Assembly (NCBI GenBank): GCA_017477435.1
Contig: JAFUVV010000017.1
Location: 1-40,625 of the forward strand
Direction: 5' to 3'
DNA from: Prevotella sp.
Lineage (GTDB): Bacteria > Bacteroidota > Bacteroidia > Bacteroidales > Bacteroidaceae
Length of the DNA: 40,625 bases
Below the pieces are notes generated by a model. It worked only from the letters and a program-made list of their open reading frames with translations. It was not told the origin of the DNA and did no database searches. Position numbers and translations under genes: made by a program. Positions 402 through 37,410 of this stretch are shown one piece after another. Numbering within the stretch: the first letter of the stretch is position 1; the number at the start of each line of letters is the position of its first letter.

Positions 402-433
402 TTTGTTTCGTTCAGAGAAATGTTATAATTTTG
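402..433 (+). promoter_or_regulatory. Promoter of the aromatic amino acid operon
   Basis: TTTG at 402-405 and TAATTTTG at 426-433 are separated by 20 bp. This fits the Bacteroidetes housekeeping consensus TTTG-N19-21-TAnnTTTG. Transcription should begin near 440, just upstream of the leader peptide and more than 200 nt before pheA, leaving room for the attenuator. Confidence 0.8.
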
Positions 434-461
434 CATGCAGAACATAGATAATTTATCAAAA

Positions 462-539
462 ATGAACAAAACGCGTGCTTACTTCTTCGGCTATTACTTT
501 TACTTTGCAAGCAATTGTGAAGCGGGAAGTCGCATGTAG
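462..539 (+). CDS. Phe/Tyr-rich leader peptide of the pheA operon
   Basis: This short open frame starts with ATG at 462, about 22 nt after the predicted transcription start, and ends with TAG at 537-539. It encodes 25 residues. Residues 7-15 read YFFGYYFYF: four Phe and four Tyr in nine positions, using TTC/TTT and TAC/TAT codons. Such a run directly upstream of prephenate dehydratase is the hallmark of an attenuator leader peptide, in which a ribosome starved for charged Phe- or Tyr-tRNA stalls. Codons 19-22 (516-526) form one strand of the antiterminator. There is no obvious Shine-Dalgarno site, as is normal in this phylum. The peptide is unlikely to have a function of its own. Confidence 0.85.
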   Translation: MNKTRAYFFGYYFYFASNCEAGSRM

Positions 540-597
540 TTTTTAGTACAAAGAAATATTTGCAGCCCCGCTTCACAGACATGTGAGACGGGGCTTT
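516..597 (+). promoter_or_regulatory. Transcription attenuator: antiterminator and terminator
   Basis: TGTGAAGCGGG (516-526), inside the leader peptide gene, is perfectly complementary to CCCGCTTCACA (567-577). The latter is the 5' half of a terminator hairpin: AGCCCCG (564-570) pairs with CGGGGCT (589-595), TCACA (573-577) pairs with TGTGA (582-586), and the loop is GACA. The two structures exclude each other. A ribosome stalled on the Phe/Tyr codons would leave 516-526 free to form the antiterminator. A ribosome reaching the stop codon would cover it and let the terminator form. A weak upstream stem (474-478 with 532-536, 481-485 with 526-530) is also possible. The T-run is short (595-597), so termination may be incomplete. 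Confidence 0.8.
564..597 (+). terminator. Attenuator terminator hairpin
   Basis: A 7-bp GC-rich stem (564-570 with 589-595), a 2x2 internal loop, a 5-bp stem (573-577 with 582-586) and a 4-nt loop, followed by only three T residues. It lies 59 nt upstream of pheA and is the default structure when the leader peptide is fully translated. Confidence 0.7.
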
Positions 598-646
598 AAA
601 GTGTAAAATGTAAAGTGTAAAATGTAAAGTGTAGAATGTAAAATGT
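598..646. repeat. Heptamer tandem repeat
   Basis: Seven 7-bp units alternate mainly between AAAGTGT and AAAATGT between the attenuator terminator and the pheA start. Related tracts occur at 1-30, 17815-17845 and 37411-37430. Slippage-prone repeats of this type fill many spacers in this window. Here the tract forms most of the pheA translation-initiation region. Confidence 0.7.
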
Positions 647-655
647 AGAGTAGAC

Positions 656-1486
656 ATGAAACGCATTGCCATACAAGGAGAGCTGGGGTCGTATCACGAC
701 ATTGCAGCGAGACAGTATTTCGAAGGCGACCAGGTGGAGATGGTCTGCTGCTCAACGTTCGAAGAAGTGTTTGCCAAGATGAAGGCCGACCCGACGCTCA
801 TCGGCTTTATTGCCATCGAGAACACTATTGCCGGTTCGCTGTTGCATAACTATGAACTGTTGCGTGAGTCGGGAACAACCATCGTGGGCGAGCATAAGCT
901 CCACATAGAGCATTCCATCTGCTGTCTGCCCGCTGACGACTGGGATACCATCAGCGAGGTGCACTCCCATCCCGTCGCACTCATGCAGTGCCGCGGTTTC
1001 CTTTCCCGACATGCCGACCTGAAGGCTGTGGAGACGGAAGACACGGCAGGAGCAGCTGAGGACATCAGCAGGAATGGAACCAAGGGAGTGGCGGCCATTT
1101 GCAGCGCATCGGCAGCGGAGATGTACGGAATGAAAGTACTCGAAAACTCTATTGAAGACAATAAGCATAACTTCACACGTTTCCTCGTGGTGGCCAATCC
1201 GCGTAAGGCCGACTTCCTGCGCCCGCTGGAGAAGGCAGACAAGGCAAGCCTGGTGTTCTCGCTGCCTCACGAAGAAGGATCGCTATCGAAAATACTTACT
1301 ATACTGTCATTCTATAATATAAACCTGACGAAGATACAGTCGCTGCCGGTCATCGGACATGAGTGGGAATATATGTTCTACGTCGACGTGACCTATGGCA
1401 ATCTGACCCGCTACCGTCAGTCGATCGATGCAATCATGCCGTTGACCCGCGAGCTGAGGATTATTGGAGAATACATAGGAAGGTAG
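656..1486 (+). CDS. pheA: Prephenate dehydratase
   Basis: Converts prephenate to phenylpyruvate, the committed step to phenylalanine, in the cytoplasm. The 276-residue protein has a dehydratase domain (about 1-180) with GELGSYH at 8-14, ENTIAGS at 55-61 and the catalytic T-R-F motif at 174-176. A C-terminal ACT domain (about 198-276) follows for feedback by Phe. The usual ESRP Phe-binding motif of the ACT domain reads QSLP at 228-231, so feedback may differ from the enterobacterial enzyme. It lacks the N-terminal chorismate mutase found in E. coli PheA; that activity is fused to the DAHP synthase two genes downstream. It is the first structural gene behind the Phe/Tyr attenuator. Confidence 0.95.
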   Translation: MKRIAIQGELGSYHDIAARQYFEGDQVEMVCCSTFEEVFAKMKADPTLIGFIAIENTIAGSLLHNYELLRESGTTIVGEHKLHIEHSICCLPADDWDTISEVHSHPVALMQCRGFLSRHADLKAVETEDTAGAAEDISRNGTKGVAAICSASAAEMYGMKVLENSIEDNKHNFTRFLVVANPRKADFLRPLEKADKASLVFSLPHEEGSLSKILTILSFYNINLTKIQSLPVIGHEWEYMFYVDVTYGNLTRYRQSIDAIMPLTRELRIIGEYIGR

Positions 1487-2761: not shown

Positions 2762-2809
2762 TTTTTTAATTATTCAATTCGTTAGTTTTTTAATTATTCA
2801 ATTTGTTAA
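2762..2809. repeat. Two tandem 24-bp AT-rich repeats
   Basis: Units at 2762-2785 and 2786-2809 match at 22 of 24 positions. They fill the spacer before the DAHP synthase start, so this intra-operon spacer consists almost entirely of repeat. No promoter-like element is convincing inside it. Confidence 0.7.
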
Positions 2810-2820
2810 TTCGTAAAGAT

Positions 2821-3888
2821 ATGGAAATACATCTTAACCCTCTCAATTTGCCAAGCGATCAGCAGCGTCCGTTCATCATCGCTGGTCCGTGTAGTGCTGA
2901 AACCGAGGAGCAAGTGATGACCACTGCCCTTCAGTTGGCGTCGAAAGGTTGCCACATGTTCCGTGCCGGGGCATGGAAGCCGCGTACAAAGCCCGGTTGC
3001 TTTGAAGGACATGGCGAACCGGCATTAGTATGGCTGAAGGAAGTAAAGGAAAAAACCGGCATGCAGGTGGCTACTGAAGTCGCCACGCCTAAGCATGTAG
3101 AGCTGGCTCTGAAGTATGGCATCGACATCCTTTGGATTGGTGCCCGCACCACAGCCAATCCTTTCGCCATGCAAGCCCTTGCCGACTCATTGCGCGGAGT
3201 CGACGTCCCAGTACTTGTGAAGAATCCGGTTAATCCCGATATCGAGCTATGGATTGGTGCACTCGAGCGTCTCAATCAGGCTGGGGTCAACAGGCTTGGG
3301 GCTGTCCATAGGGGATTCTCCAGCTTTGGAGAGAAGATTTACCGCAACATGCCCATGTGGCAAATCCCCATCGAACTTCATCGTCGCATACCTCAGTTGC
3401 CCCTCATCTGCGACCCGAGCCATATTAGTGGTCGCCGCGAACTCATTGCTCCTCTCTGCCAGCAGGCAATGGACCTCGGTTTCGACGGACTCATAGTGGA
3501 GAGCCACTGTTCGCCCGACGAGGCATGGAGCGATGCTTCACAACAGGTGACCCCCGACGTGCTCGACTATATTCTTTCGCTTCTTGTCATTCGTGACGAA
3601 CGTGCCACTACAGAAGGCATATCCCAGTTGCGCCGACAGATAGACGAAGTGGACAATCAGCTCATGGAACTCCTTGCCCGCCGAATGCGCATCTGTCGTG
3701 AGATTGGTGAGTATAAGAAGGAGCACAACATGACCATCCTGCAGGCCGTGCGTTACAACGAGATACTCGAGAAGCGTGGTGCACAGGGTTCGCTCATGGG
3801 CATGGCGCCGGAGTTTATAGCAAAAGTCTTCGAGAACGTTCATGAAGAAAGCGTACGCCAACAAATGGAAATAATTAATAAGGATTGA
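2821..3888 (+). CDS. Bifunctional DAHP synthase / chorismate mutase
   Basis: Catalyses the first step of the shikimate pathway (PEP plus erythrose 4-phosphate to DAHP) and also chorismate to prephenate. The DAHP synthase domain (about 1-255) has GPCS at 22-25, KPRT at 53-56 and DPSH at 198-201. A type II chorismate mutase helix bundle follows (about 262-350; RRQIDEVDNQLMELLARR from 271). This N-DAHPS/C-CM order is known in Prevotella, where the mutase domain confers allosteric inhibition by prephenate. ATG 2821 is preferred over an upstream in-frame TTG at 2803, which lies in repeat DNA. Fusion and operon position link entry and branch point of Phe/Tyr synthesis under one attenuator. Confidence 0.93.
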   Translation: MEIHLNPLNLPSDQQRPFIIAGPCSAETEEQVMTTALQLASKGCHMFRAGAWKPRTKPGCFEGHGEPALVWLKEVKEKTGMQVATEVATPKHVELALKYGIDILWIGARTTANPFAMQALADSLRGVDVPVLVKNPVNPDIELWIGALERLNQAGVNRLGAVHRGFSSFGEKIYRNMPMWQIPIELHRRIPQLPLICDPSHISGRRELIAPLCQQAMDLGFDGLIVESHCSPDEAWSDASQQVTPDVLDYILSLLVIRDERATTEGISQLRRQIDEVDNQLMELLARRMRICREIGEYKKEHNMTILQAVRYNEILEKRGAQGSLMGMAPEFIAKVFENVHEESVRQQMEIINKD

Positions 3889-3919: not shown

Positions 3920-4693
3920 ATGAGAATATTGATATTAGGTGCAGGTAAGATGGGAAGTTTCTTTCTCGACCTGCTTAGCTTCGACCACGAGACCGCAGTC
4001 TATGAGATAGATCCCCGCCGACTGCGATTCACTTACAATACCCTCCGTTTTACTTCGCTCGAAGAGATTGATGAGTTCCGTCCCGAACTTGTCATCAATG
4101 CCGTGACGGTGAAGTACACTTTGCAGGCCTTCGACCAGGTGTTGCCTCACCTGCCTGCCGACTGTATTCTTAGCGATATCAGTTCGGTGAAGACGGGGTT
4201 GAAGGAGTATTATGAAAAGACAGGTCGGCGCTACGTGTCCACCCATCCCATGTTTGGTCCCACCTTTGCCAACCTGAACCAGCTCTCCCACGAGAATGCC
4301 ATCATCATCAGCGAGGGCGACTACATGGGCCGCATCTTCTTCCGCGACCTCTACCAGCGCCTGGGTCTCAATATTTATGAATACACCTTTGAAGAGCACG
4401 ACCGCACGGTGGCCTACTCGCTTTCCATTCCTTTCGTTTCCACCTTCGTCTTCGCTGCCGTCATGAAGCATCAGGATGCGCCCGGAACGACATTCAAGCG
4501 CCACCTCGCCATTGCCCACGGGGTGCTCAGCGAAGACGACTACCTCCTTCAGGAGATACTTTTCAATCCTTACACCCACGACCAGGTGTCGCAGATTCGC
4601 GACGAACTCAAAGAACTGCTCGGAATAATCGACCGCCGCGATTCAGAGGGAATGCATCAATATCTCGAGAAAATACGTAAGAATGTGAAATAG
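3920..4693 (+). CDS. tyrA: Prephenate dehydrogenase
   Basis: Oxidative decarboxylation of prephenate to 4-hydroxyphenylpyruvate, the tyrosine branch. The 257-residue protein starts with a Rossmann motif GAGKMGS (7-13), then DISSVK (86-91) and HPMFGP (109-114), the conserved substrate-site region. No ACT domain is present. It lies 31 bp after the DAHP synthase-chorismate mutase gene and is the last biosynthetic gene of the operon. The pathway is then complete from chorismate to both keto acids, with the aminotransferase as the likely final step. Confidence 0.92.
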   Translation: MRILILGAGKMGSFFLDLLSFDHETAVYEIDPRRLRFTYNTLRFTSLEEIDEFRPELVINAVTVKYTLQAFDQVLPHLPADCILSDISSVKTGLKEYYEKTGRRYVSTHPMFGPTFANLNQLSHENAIIISEGDYMGRIFFRDLYQRLGLNIYEYTFEEHDRTVAYSLSIPFVSTFVFAAVMKHQDAPGTTFKRHLAIAHGVLSEDDYLLQEILFNPYTHDQVSQIRDELKELLGIIDRRDSEGMHQYLEKIRKNVK

Positions 4694-5789: not shown

Positions 5790-5877
5790 AGTACAAAGCC
5801 TTTGTACTCTCAGTACACGACCCATGTACTCTGAGTACGGCGTTCATGTACTCTCAGTGCAAAGCCCTTGTACTGGG
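5790..5877. repeat. GTAC block A: four tandem 22-bp palindromic units
   Basis: Units begin at 5790, 5812, 5834 and 5856. Each is a near-palindrome of the form AGTAC-N9-GTACT followed by a 3-bp spacer (CTC, CTG, CTC, GGG). This is the most divergent block: unit 4 has AGTGC. It starts 17 bp after a stop codon. Four other blocks with exactly four units occur in this window. Confidence 0.9.
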
Positions 5878-12984: not shown

Positions 12985-13072
12985 AGTACATGAACGTTGT
13001 ACTCTCAGTACAAGGCCCATGTACTGTGAGTACAAAGGTCATGTACTCGGCGTACAAGGCCCATGTACTGCG
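12985..13072. repeat. GTAC block B: four tandem 22-bp palindromic units
   Basis: Units begin at 12985, 13007, 13029 and 13051, each of the form (A/C)GTAC-N9-GTACT plus a 3-bp spacer. The block lies between the divergent GH76 and ffh genes, upstream of both promoters. Confidence 0.95.
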
Positions 13073-20816: not shown

Positions 20817-20904
20817 AGTACATGGTTCTTGTACTCCCAGTACAAAGGCCATGTACTCGGAGTACAAAGGCCATGTACTCGAAGTACAAGGCCTATGTAC
20901 TGCT
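20817..20904. repeat. GTAC block C: four tandem 22-bp palindromic units
   Basis: Units begin at 20817, 20839, 20861 and 20883. Units 2 and 3 are the cleanest copies (AGTACAAAGGCCATGTACT plus CGG or CGA). The block lies between the OmpA terminator and the thioesterase promoter. Confidence 0.95.
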
Positions 20905-25790: not shown

Positions 25791-25878
25791 AGTACAAAGG
25801 CTTTGTACTCGGAGTACATGGGCTTTGTACTGTGAGTACATGGCTTTTGTACTCGGAGTACATGGGCTTTGTACTGCG
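25791..25878. repeat. GTAC block D: four tandem 22-bp palindromic units
   Basis: Units begin at 25791, 25813, 25835 and 25857 and consist of AGTAC-N9-GTACT plus a 3-bp spacer (CGG, GTG, CGG, GCG). Compared with blocks C and E the inner bases (ATGGGCTTT) are reverse complements, so this block is in the opposite orientation. It lies upstream of recJ and downstream of the pantothenate kinase terminator. Confidence 0.95.
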
Positions 25879-37322: not shown

Positions 37323-37410
37323 AGTACAAAGCCCATGTACTCGGAGTACAAGAGCCATGTACTCGGAGTACAAGAGTCATGTATTCGGAGTACATAGCCC
37401 ATGTACTAGC
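37323..37410. repeat. GTAC block E: four tandem 22-bp palindromic units
   Basis: Units begin at 37323, 37345, 37367 and 37389. Three are AGTAC-N9-GTACT; unit 3 has GTATT in its second half. Spacers are CGG three times and AGC at the end. Heptamer-type GTAGAGCGTAAAATGTAAAT follows at once. Confidence 0.95.

Follow-up and report, generated by a model that had tools for sequence, protein, structure and literature searches.

A probable leader-peptide attenuator for phenylalanine and tyrosine upstream of a pheA operon in Prevotella and its relatives

What is the role of the short, phenylalanine- and tyrosine-rich open reading frame (ORF) that precedes the pheA operon of this Prevotella sp., and does the RNA that carries it act as a switch? 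Attenuation by leader peptides is textbook knowledge, and its most familiar cases are those of enterobacteria. A sequence-only reading of the window (the whole stretch of 40,625 nucleotides analysed here, which starts at the start of its contig) had proposed a ribosome-mediated attenuator that senses both amino acids. We examined this proposal by comparison with related loci and by RNA folding.

Anatomy of the leader region and operon

The proposed parts of the attenuator lie in the following places in the window.

402 to 433, + strand: Bacteroidota-type promoter, TTTG at 402-405 and TAATTTTG at 426-433
462 to 539, + strand: leader peptide ORF, ATG at 462, 25 codons, stop TAG at 537-539
475 to 535, + strand: candidate outer protector helix (1:2), about 475-485 with 526-535
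480 to 506, + strand: sensor codons Tyr Phe Phe Gly Tyr Tyr Phe Tyr Phe, residues 7-15 (YFFGYYFYF)
503 to 522, + strand: candidate small protector hairpin, CUUUGCAA at 503-510 paired with UUGUGAAG at 515-522, which shares bases with the antiterminator strand
516 to 526, + strand: strand 2, the 5' strand of the antiterminator, in leader codons 19-22
564 to 597, + strand: terminator hairpin (3:4) at 564-595, arms 564-570 and 589-595, with a short U-run at 595-597
567 to 577, + strand: strand 3, the 3' strand of the antiterminator, within the terminator hairpin
597 to 647, + strand: heptamer tandem repeat (TAAAATG) between the terminator and pheA, after the short U-run
656 to 1486, + strand: pheA, prephenate dehydratase (Pfam PDT; an ACT match fell under Pfam's cut-off)
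1560 to 2741, + strand: class I/II aminotransferase (Pfam Aminotran_1_2; an ORF start is possible at 1536)
2803 to 3888, + strand: DAHP synthase fused to chorismate mutase, DAHPS/CM (Pfam DAHP_synth_1 and CM_2)
3920 to 4693, + strand: tyrA, prephenate dehydrogenase (Pfam PDH_N)

The promoter and the 25-codon leader were found as the sequence-only reading had described them; TTTG and TAATTTTG are presumably the two elements of a Bacteroidota-type promoter. Inspection of the sequence likewise confirmed that 516-526 and 567-577 are perfect complements over 11 nt and that the 5' half of the terminator includes the complement of strand 2. The leader ORF was short and carried a run of codons for the amino acids that the operon produces, as an attenuator does. 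Pfam gene calls upheld the claimed order pheA-aminotransferase-DAHPS/CM-tyrA 3' of the leader. A single-sequence fold of the window contained a pairing similar to the outer 1:2 helix. At 227-273 there was also a long, AT-rich inverted repeat that resembles a minus-strand terminator, with T following it on that strand.

Distribution of the leader among relatives

Loci were collected by a search with the window's PheA, and a leader was scored when an ATG-initiated ORF of 10 to 60 amino acids with at least 6 Phe or Tyr in 9 residues lay no more than 450 nt from pheA. The best 80 of 564 confirmed loci were mostly titled Prevotella or Prevotellaceae, with four titled more broadly. A leader was detected in 79 of these 80, whereas the same criterion picked out 2 of 80 reverse strands and 0.2% of dinucleotide shuffles; in the remaining locus (L050) the leader begins just outside the scanned 450 nt, so that all 80 have one. 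These leaders and that of the window make up a set of 81 leaders with 70 distinct rows.

Leaders were detected at 23 of 31 pheA loci of the same family, 41 of 49 of the same order, 32 of 45 of other orders of the class and none of 29 of other classes of the phylum (450-nt scan; reverse strand 1, 1, 0 and 0, respectively; shuffles positive at most 0.94%), these loci being partly the best-scoring of each search and partly close kin (family f112) rather than independent random draws. One further locus of the order sample, L106, had only 15 nt of upstream sequence and was left out of the leader scan. The Bacteroidales setting given in the sequence-only reading was too narrow as a limit, as shown by the loci from other orders of the class. 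Seven of the eight family misses had a prephenate dehydratase 30 to 32% identical to that of the window, in a different gene setting and preceded by a stretch that matched part of the window's DAHPS/CM protein; five of these seven were re-examined with longer upstream sequence, and all five lacked an aromatic leader. The eighth miss (L160) has a leader with a non-ATG start. A chance low-complexity ORF was ruled out by the reverse-strand and shuffle controls.

Every one of the 81 leaders (those of the best 80 of 564 loci and of the window) had the motif TAnnTTTG in the 90 nt that precede its ATG (mononucleotide shuffles, 4.5%), and 65 of the 81 had an upstream TTTG besides (shuffles, 0.2%). Among the other 96 leaders, TAnnTTTG was present in only 62 and the upstream TTTG in 33.

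Linkage to the operon was assessed with a covariance model built from the leader alignment, the window included. This model matched once per genome in 32 of 41 family genomes, and 31 of the 32 matches lay just 5' of a prephenate dehydratase match. The nine family genomes without a leader match had either no prephenate dehydratase match (six) or the divergent form alone (three). The exception among the matches was genome G412 (L252 and L253), in which the leader precedes aminotransferase-DAHPS/CM and pheA is located elsewhere, behind a promoter without a leader; in this genome the leader has thus followed the chorismate operon. In 40 class genomes the model gave five matches, all upstream of pheA.

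Conservation of the codon run

The aromatic codon run was retained in relatives. Across the gap-free run columns of the 45 leaders in alignment A1 (MAFFT; 36 of the 81 leaders were left out), all 329 T[TA]N codons specified Phe or Tyr, with no Leu or stop. T[TA]N triplets ended in T or C in 92 of 95 cases in frame +1 of the run columns and in 36 of 160 in frame +2. The fraction over all trinucleotides of the window was 0.60, which is too low a baseline: a high density of Phe and Tyr was the criterion for selecting these loci, and frame +1 comes close to the reading frame in pyrimidine content. Both Phe and Tyr occurred in each of the 81 leaders from the best 80 of 564 loci and the window, at means of 3.8 and 4.5, respectively.

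Outside the 81-leader set, Trp was also present in 22 of 96 leaders, often within the run (L081, L084, L091, L094, L098, L175, L190, L223, L230 and others). Judged by their codons, these leaders possibly sense all three aromatic amino acids.

Pairing and covariation of the RNA strands

The two helices of the proposed switch covaried in aligned relatives, as would be expected if the sequence-only reading holds. Strands 2 and 3 paired in 87.9% of cells among the 81 leaders (70 distinct, consensus-anchored), a level reached by none of 1,000 re-pairings, of which the largest gave 86.8%; 15 double changes were seen in these 70 distinct leaders, compared to a re-pairing maximum of 8. On the 45-row alignment, double changes had occurred at 6 of 12 antiterminator pairs, a figure that none of 500 shuffles matched, and no more than 51.5% of cells paired when the partner was slid. 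Double-change cells numbered 53 in the terminator helix; shuffles averaged 17, and again none of 500 was as high. In L018, L039 and L050, one change was matched across strands 2, 3 and 4; these sequences are near-identical to each other, and this is perhaps a single event. The number of further pair types was not above shuffles in any of the four helices (45 rows).

A small protector hairpin that hides strand 2 was proposed by RNAalifold at the end of the aromatic run. Its cells were paired at 99.7% with 15 double-change cells (0 of 500 shuffles), all in one of its eight pairs, which changed at least six times on the PheA tree. The outer 1:2 helix was 80.1% paired (1 of 500 shuffles as high) with 15 double-change cells (4 of 500) in the 45 rows; when the partner was slid by +2, 24 double-change cells were counted at 53.3% paired. 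Support for the protector helices was thinner than the covariation of antiterminator and terminator.

Pairing energies were compared between cognate and swapped strands. In the 81-leader set (best 80 of 564 and the window), the cognate pairing was in the best tenth of swaps in 25 of 81 leaders for 1:2 and in 17 of 81 for 2:3; swaps discriminate little in this set because the sequences are so alike. The 96 other leaders had a mean cognate antiterminator energy of -15.2 kcal/mol, compared to -10.5 for swapped terminators, and 48 of them were in the best tenth. Eleven of the 96 were no better than half of their swaps (L093, L173, L195, L210, L219, L220, L222-L224, L226 and L228), and seven of these lie within L219-L228, one family. 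A hairpin was found 3' of the run in all 96, although the script always reports the best hairpin, and this count is no test by itself.

Overall, comparison at the level of sequence established the parts of the leader, its codon run, the covariation of antiterminator and terminator and the linkage to the operon.

Folding and the proposed mechanism

The conserved codon run, the covariation of both helices and the operon linkage supported the attenuator reading, and the leader is very probably a ribosome-mediated attenuator of transcription, responsive to the charging of Phe- and Tyr-tRNA. We infer the course of translation, stalling, termination, protection and response to starvation as follows. 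Transcription from the promoter at 402-433 would give the leader RNA. When Phe or Tyr is scarce, a ribosome would stall in codons 7-14, melt the protector hairpins and free 516-526, which would pair with 567-577 before 589-595 is made; no terminator would form, and the operon would be transcribed. When Phe and Tyr are plentiful, the ribosome would reach the stop codon at 537-539 and cover strand 2, and the terminator at 564-595 would form. If the leader is untranslated, the protector hairpins would hold strand 2 and the terminator would form too.

Folding was performed with the ribosome footprint masked. With the A-site at Tyr7, Phe8, Tyr11, Phe13 or Tyr14 and the RNA extending to strand 3, the antiterminator had a probability of 0.98 to 0.99, and with the ribosome on the stop codon the terminator had a probability of 0.99. 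Covariation and masked folding together indicated that the position of the ribosome decides the pairing of the antiterminator strand, which is mutually exclusive with the terminator. The terminator was also favoured in the complete free RNA (0.99), and it was still favoured at equilibrium in the complete RNA with a stalled ribosome (0.87 to 0.96), while free RNA up to strand 3 formed the antiterminator and not the protector. The switch must therefore be kinetic, since the terminator wins in the complete RNA even with a stalled ribosome and free RNA to strand 3 forms the antiterminator. The classic attenuation model is likewise a kinetic switch. In these folding models, the untranslated state would be the least secure step of the mechanism.

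The terminator U-run and adjacent repeats

In the window, the last G/C of the stem is followed by UUUAAAGUG, with 4 U in 9 nt, and the heptamer tandem repeat begins at this point. A simple consensus terminator scan (at least 5 T in 8 bases) did not list the window terminator, which has 4. Most elements (166 of 177) carried 5 or more U among the 9 nt beyond the last G/C of the stem. The other 11, the window included, had 4 U or fewer by count; in five of these (L038, L089, L163, L167 and L185) the stem as called takes in the U-run, so that six elements are truly U-poor. Eight further leaders of the same genus had T-runs of 4 to 8 close 3' of the stem. The suggestion of a Bacteroidetes-specific terminator was not supported and a phylum-specific form was ruled out, as these 166 elements have more U than the window. 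Because the U-run of the window is short, termination in this genome may be weaker than in most relatives, or partial.

The heptamer also occurs at 4-27 in the window, and similar arrays are present on other contigs of the genome; genome-wide the pattern was not specific, as its 31 matches were little above the 24 obtained with its reversal. Five arrays in the window consist of a 22-bp tandem repeat based on AGTACA...TGTACT (5790-5874, 12998-13069, 20830-20901, 25791-25875 and 37323-37407). Four of them hold long inverted repeats with arms of 19 to 48 nt that are 74 to 87% complementary, and the first has arms of only 9 nt.

Alternative explanations

The ORF might encode a small hydrophobic protein with a function of its own, the hairpin being merely the terminator of that small gene. 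The Phe/Tyr frame is indeed kept, and the peptide tail NCEAGSC was strongly conserved in the leaders of the best 80 of 564 loci. However, the tail was lost through a shifted frame in 8 of the 81 leaders (these loci and the window) in which the RNA strand 2 was kept, which rules out a functional peptide tail. The tails of other families differ while their Phe/Tyr runs remain, and the tail bases covary with the terminator arm, so that a small protein is an extremely improbable explanation. A T-box or metabolite riboswitch, with the ORF incidental, would also account for a structured leader before an amino acid operon, but no Rfam family reached its gathering score in the window or at 10 of the collected loci, and the Phe/Tyr codons are conserved. 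The sole match to 380-700 up to an E value of 5 was a plant miRNA model (E 4.7). The Phe_leader model, that of the E. coli pheA leader attenuator, and the T-box model gave no match in the window at the gathering score or in 380-700 up to E 5, and the T-box model gave none at those 10 loci. We regard control by a riboswitch as scarcely conceivable.

The short U-run in the window would fit a leader that controls pheA translation instead of transcription, with alternative hairpins hiding or freeing the start site. The pheA ATG, however, lies 60 nt past the end of the terminator stem in the window, and the U-richness past the stem (5 or more in 9 nt in 166 of the 177 elements) is a mark of intrinsic termination; translational control is very unlikely. 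A further possibility is a sub-case of the attenuator and compatible with it, namely, that the attenuator is decaying here, the heptamer repeat having replaced the U-run and the operon having become largely constitutive. The sequence after the stem, the 7-nt repeat that starts in it and the place of the window among the U-poor elements are in keeping with decay. Against it, the window has kept both its leader frame and its sensor codons, its antiterminator and its terminator stem are likewise intact, and the five other U-poor elements (L009, L011, L016, L022 and L062) keep the rest of their anatomy. We consider such decay a real, if rather unlikely, prospect within the attenuator reading.

Relation to known systems

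The peptide of the E. coli pheA leader likewise abounds in the amino acid that is produced; this leader, too, has an antiterminator/terminator switch and a downstream prephenate dehydratase. The element described here differs in using Tyr besides Phe, in heading an operon with DAHPS/CM and tyrA, in its type of promoter and in giving no match to Rfam. The ilvGMEDA and thr leaders of enterobacteria resemble it in that a single peptide senses two or more of the amino acids produced but differ in the amino acids sensed and in phylum. The abstract of a 2004 study by Vitreschak reportedly mentions candidate attenuators in Bacteroidetes/Chlorobi. We found no described Phe/Tyr leader from this phylum in the open-licence literature searched.

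The switch is of a known kind, since the mechanism is a textbook one and a pheA element of Flavobacterium psychrophilum is in print. In the available part of that report (PMC9723704), this element is a structured 5' element upstream of pheA without an Rfam match, as here, and was found in other Flavobacteriaceae genera; in that part it is described without a leader peptide, an antiterminator or covariation, and its authors regard leader peptide attenuation as strongly indicated ahead of amino acid operons. According to the accessible text of a 2010 paper, no leader attenuation was known outside Proteobacteria and Actinobacteria before its authors' own Firmicutes case (PMC2965389). Short ORFs that resemble leader peptides are noted in a transcriptome study of Bacteroides thetaiotaomicron, which, in the portion available, does not name pheA (PMC7366714). 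For Actinobacteria, a 2005 study placed phenylalanine under attenuators and tyrosine under T-boxes, as far as its available text goes (PMC1262725). Leader-peptide attenuation is thus known as a kind, and its breadth and dual Phe/Tyr specificity here are unusual.

Short ORFs were also seen upstream of other amino acid genes. Those before hisG (L260-L286) carry His runs, e.g., MIYTRTHHHHHCLTEQTVG, mostly 279 to 358 nt 5' of the HisG match. Their density reached 3 or more His in 9 residues at 21 of 26 loci and 4 or more at 16 of 26, with at most 2 on the reverse strand; L267 and L280 among the 21 look like chance. From their sequences, these ORFs are likely to be his attenuators. Upstream of ilvD (L287-L314), some of 27 loci have Ile/Leu/Val-rich short ORFs, often with a VVV run (e.g., L295 and L309), about 270 to 320 nt 5' of the IlvD match, and since the reverse strand reaches 7 of 9 residues, the count alone is weak.

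Implications

We lean slightly towards the wider proposal that the Phe/Tyr attenuator is ancestral to class Bacteroidia, is tied to the chorismate-making operon and not to pheA as such, and is one of several leader attenuators, of his and ilv types as well, with coupling of ribosome and polymerase kept. These bacteria mostly lack Shine-Dalgarno sites. If the proposal is true, ribosome and polymerase must stay coupled in the leaders despite this. The attenuator would be a compact reporter for asking whether transcription-translation coupling occurs in these bacteria. Sensing of tyrosine by a leader peptide is unusual, and the alignment, with its covariation, could serve as the basis of a new RNA family. 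Under the attenuator reading, a large group of bacteria of the gut and rumen would have a textbook mechanism heading its synthesis of aromatic amino acids.
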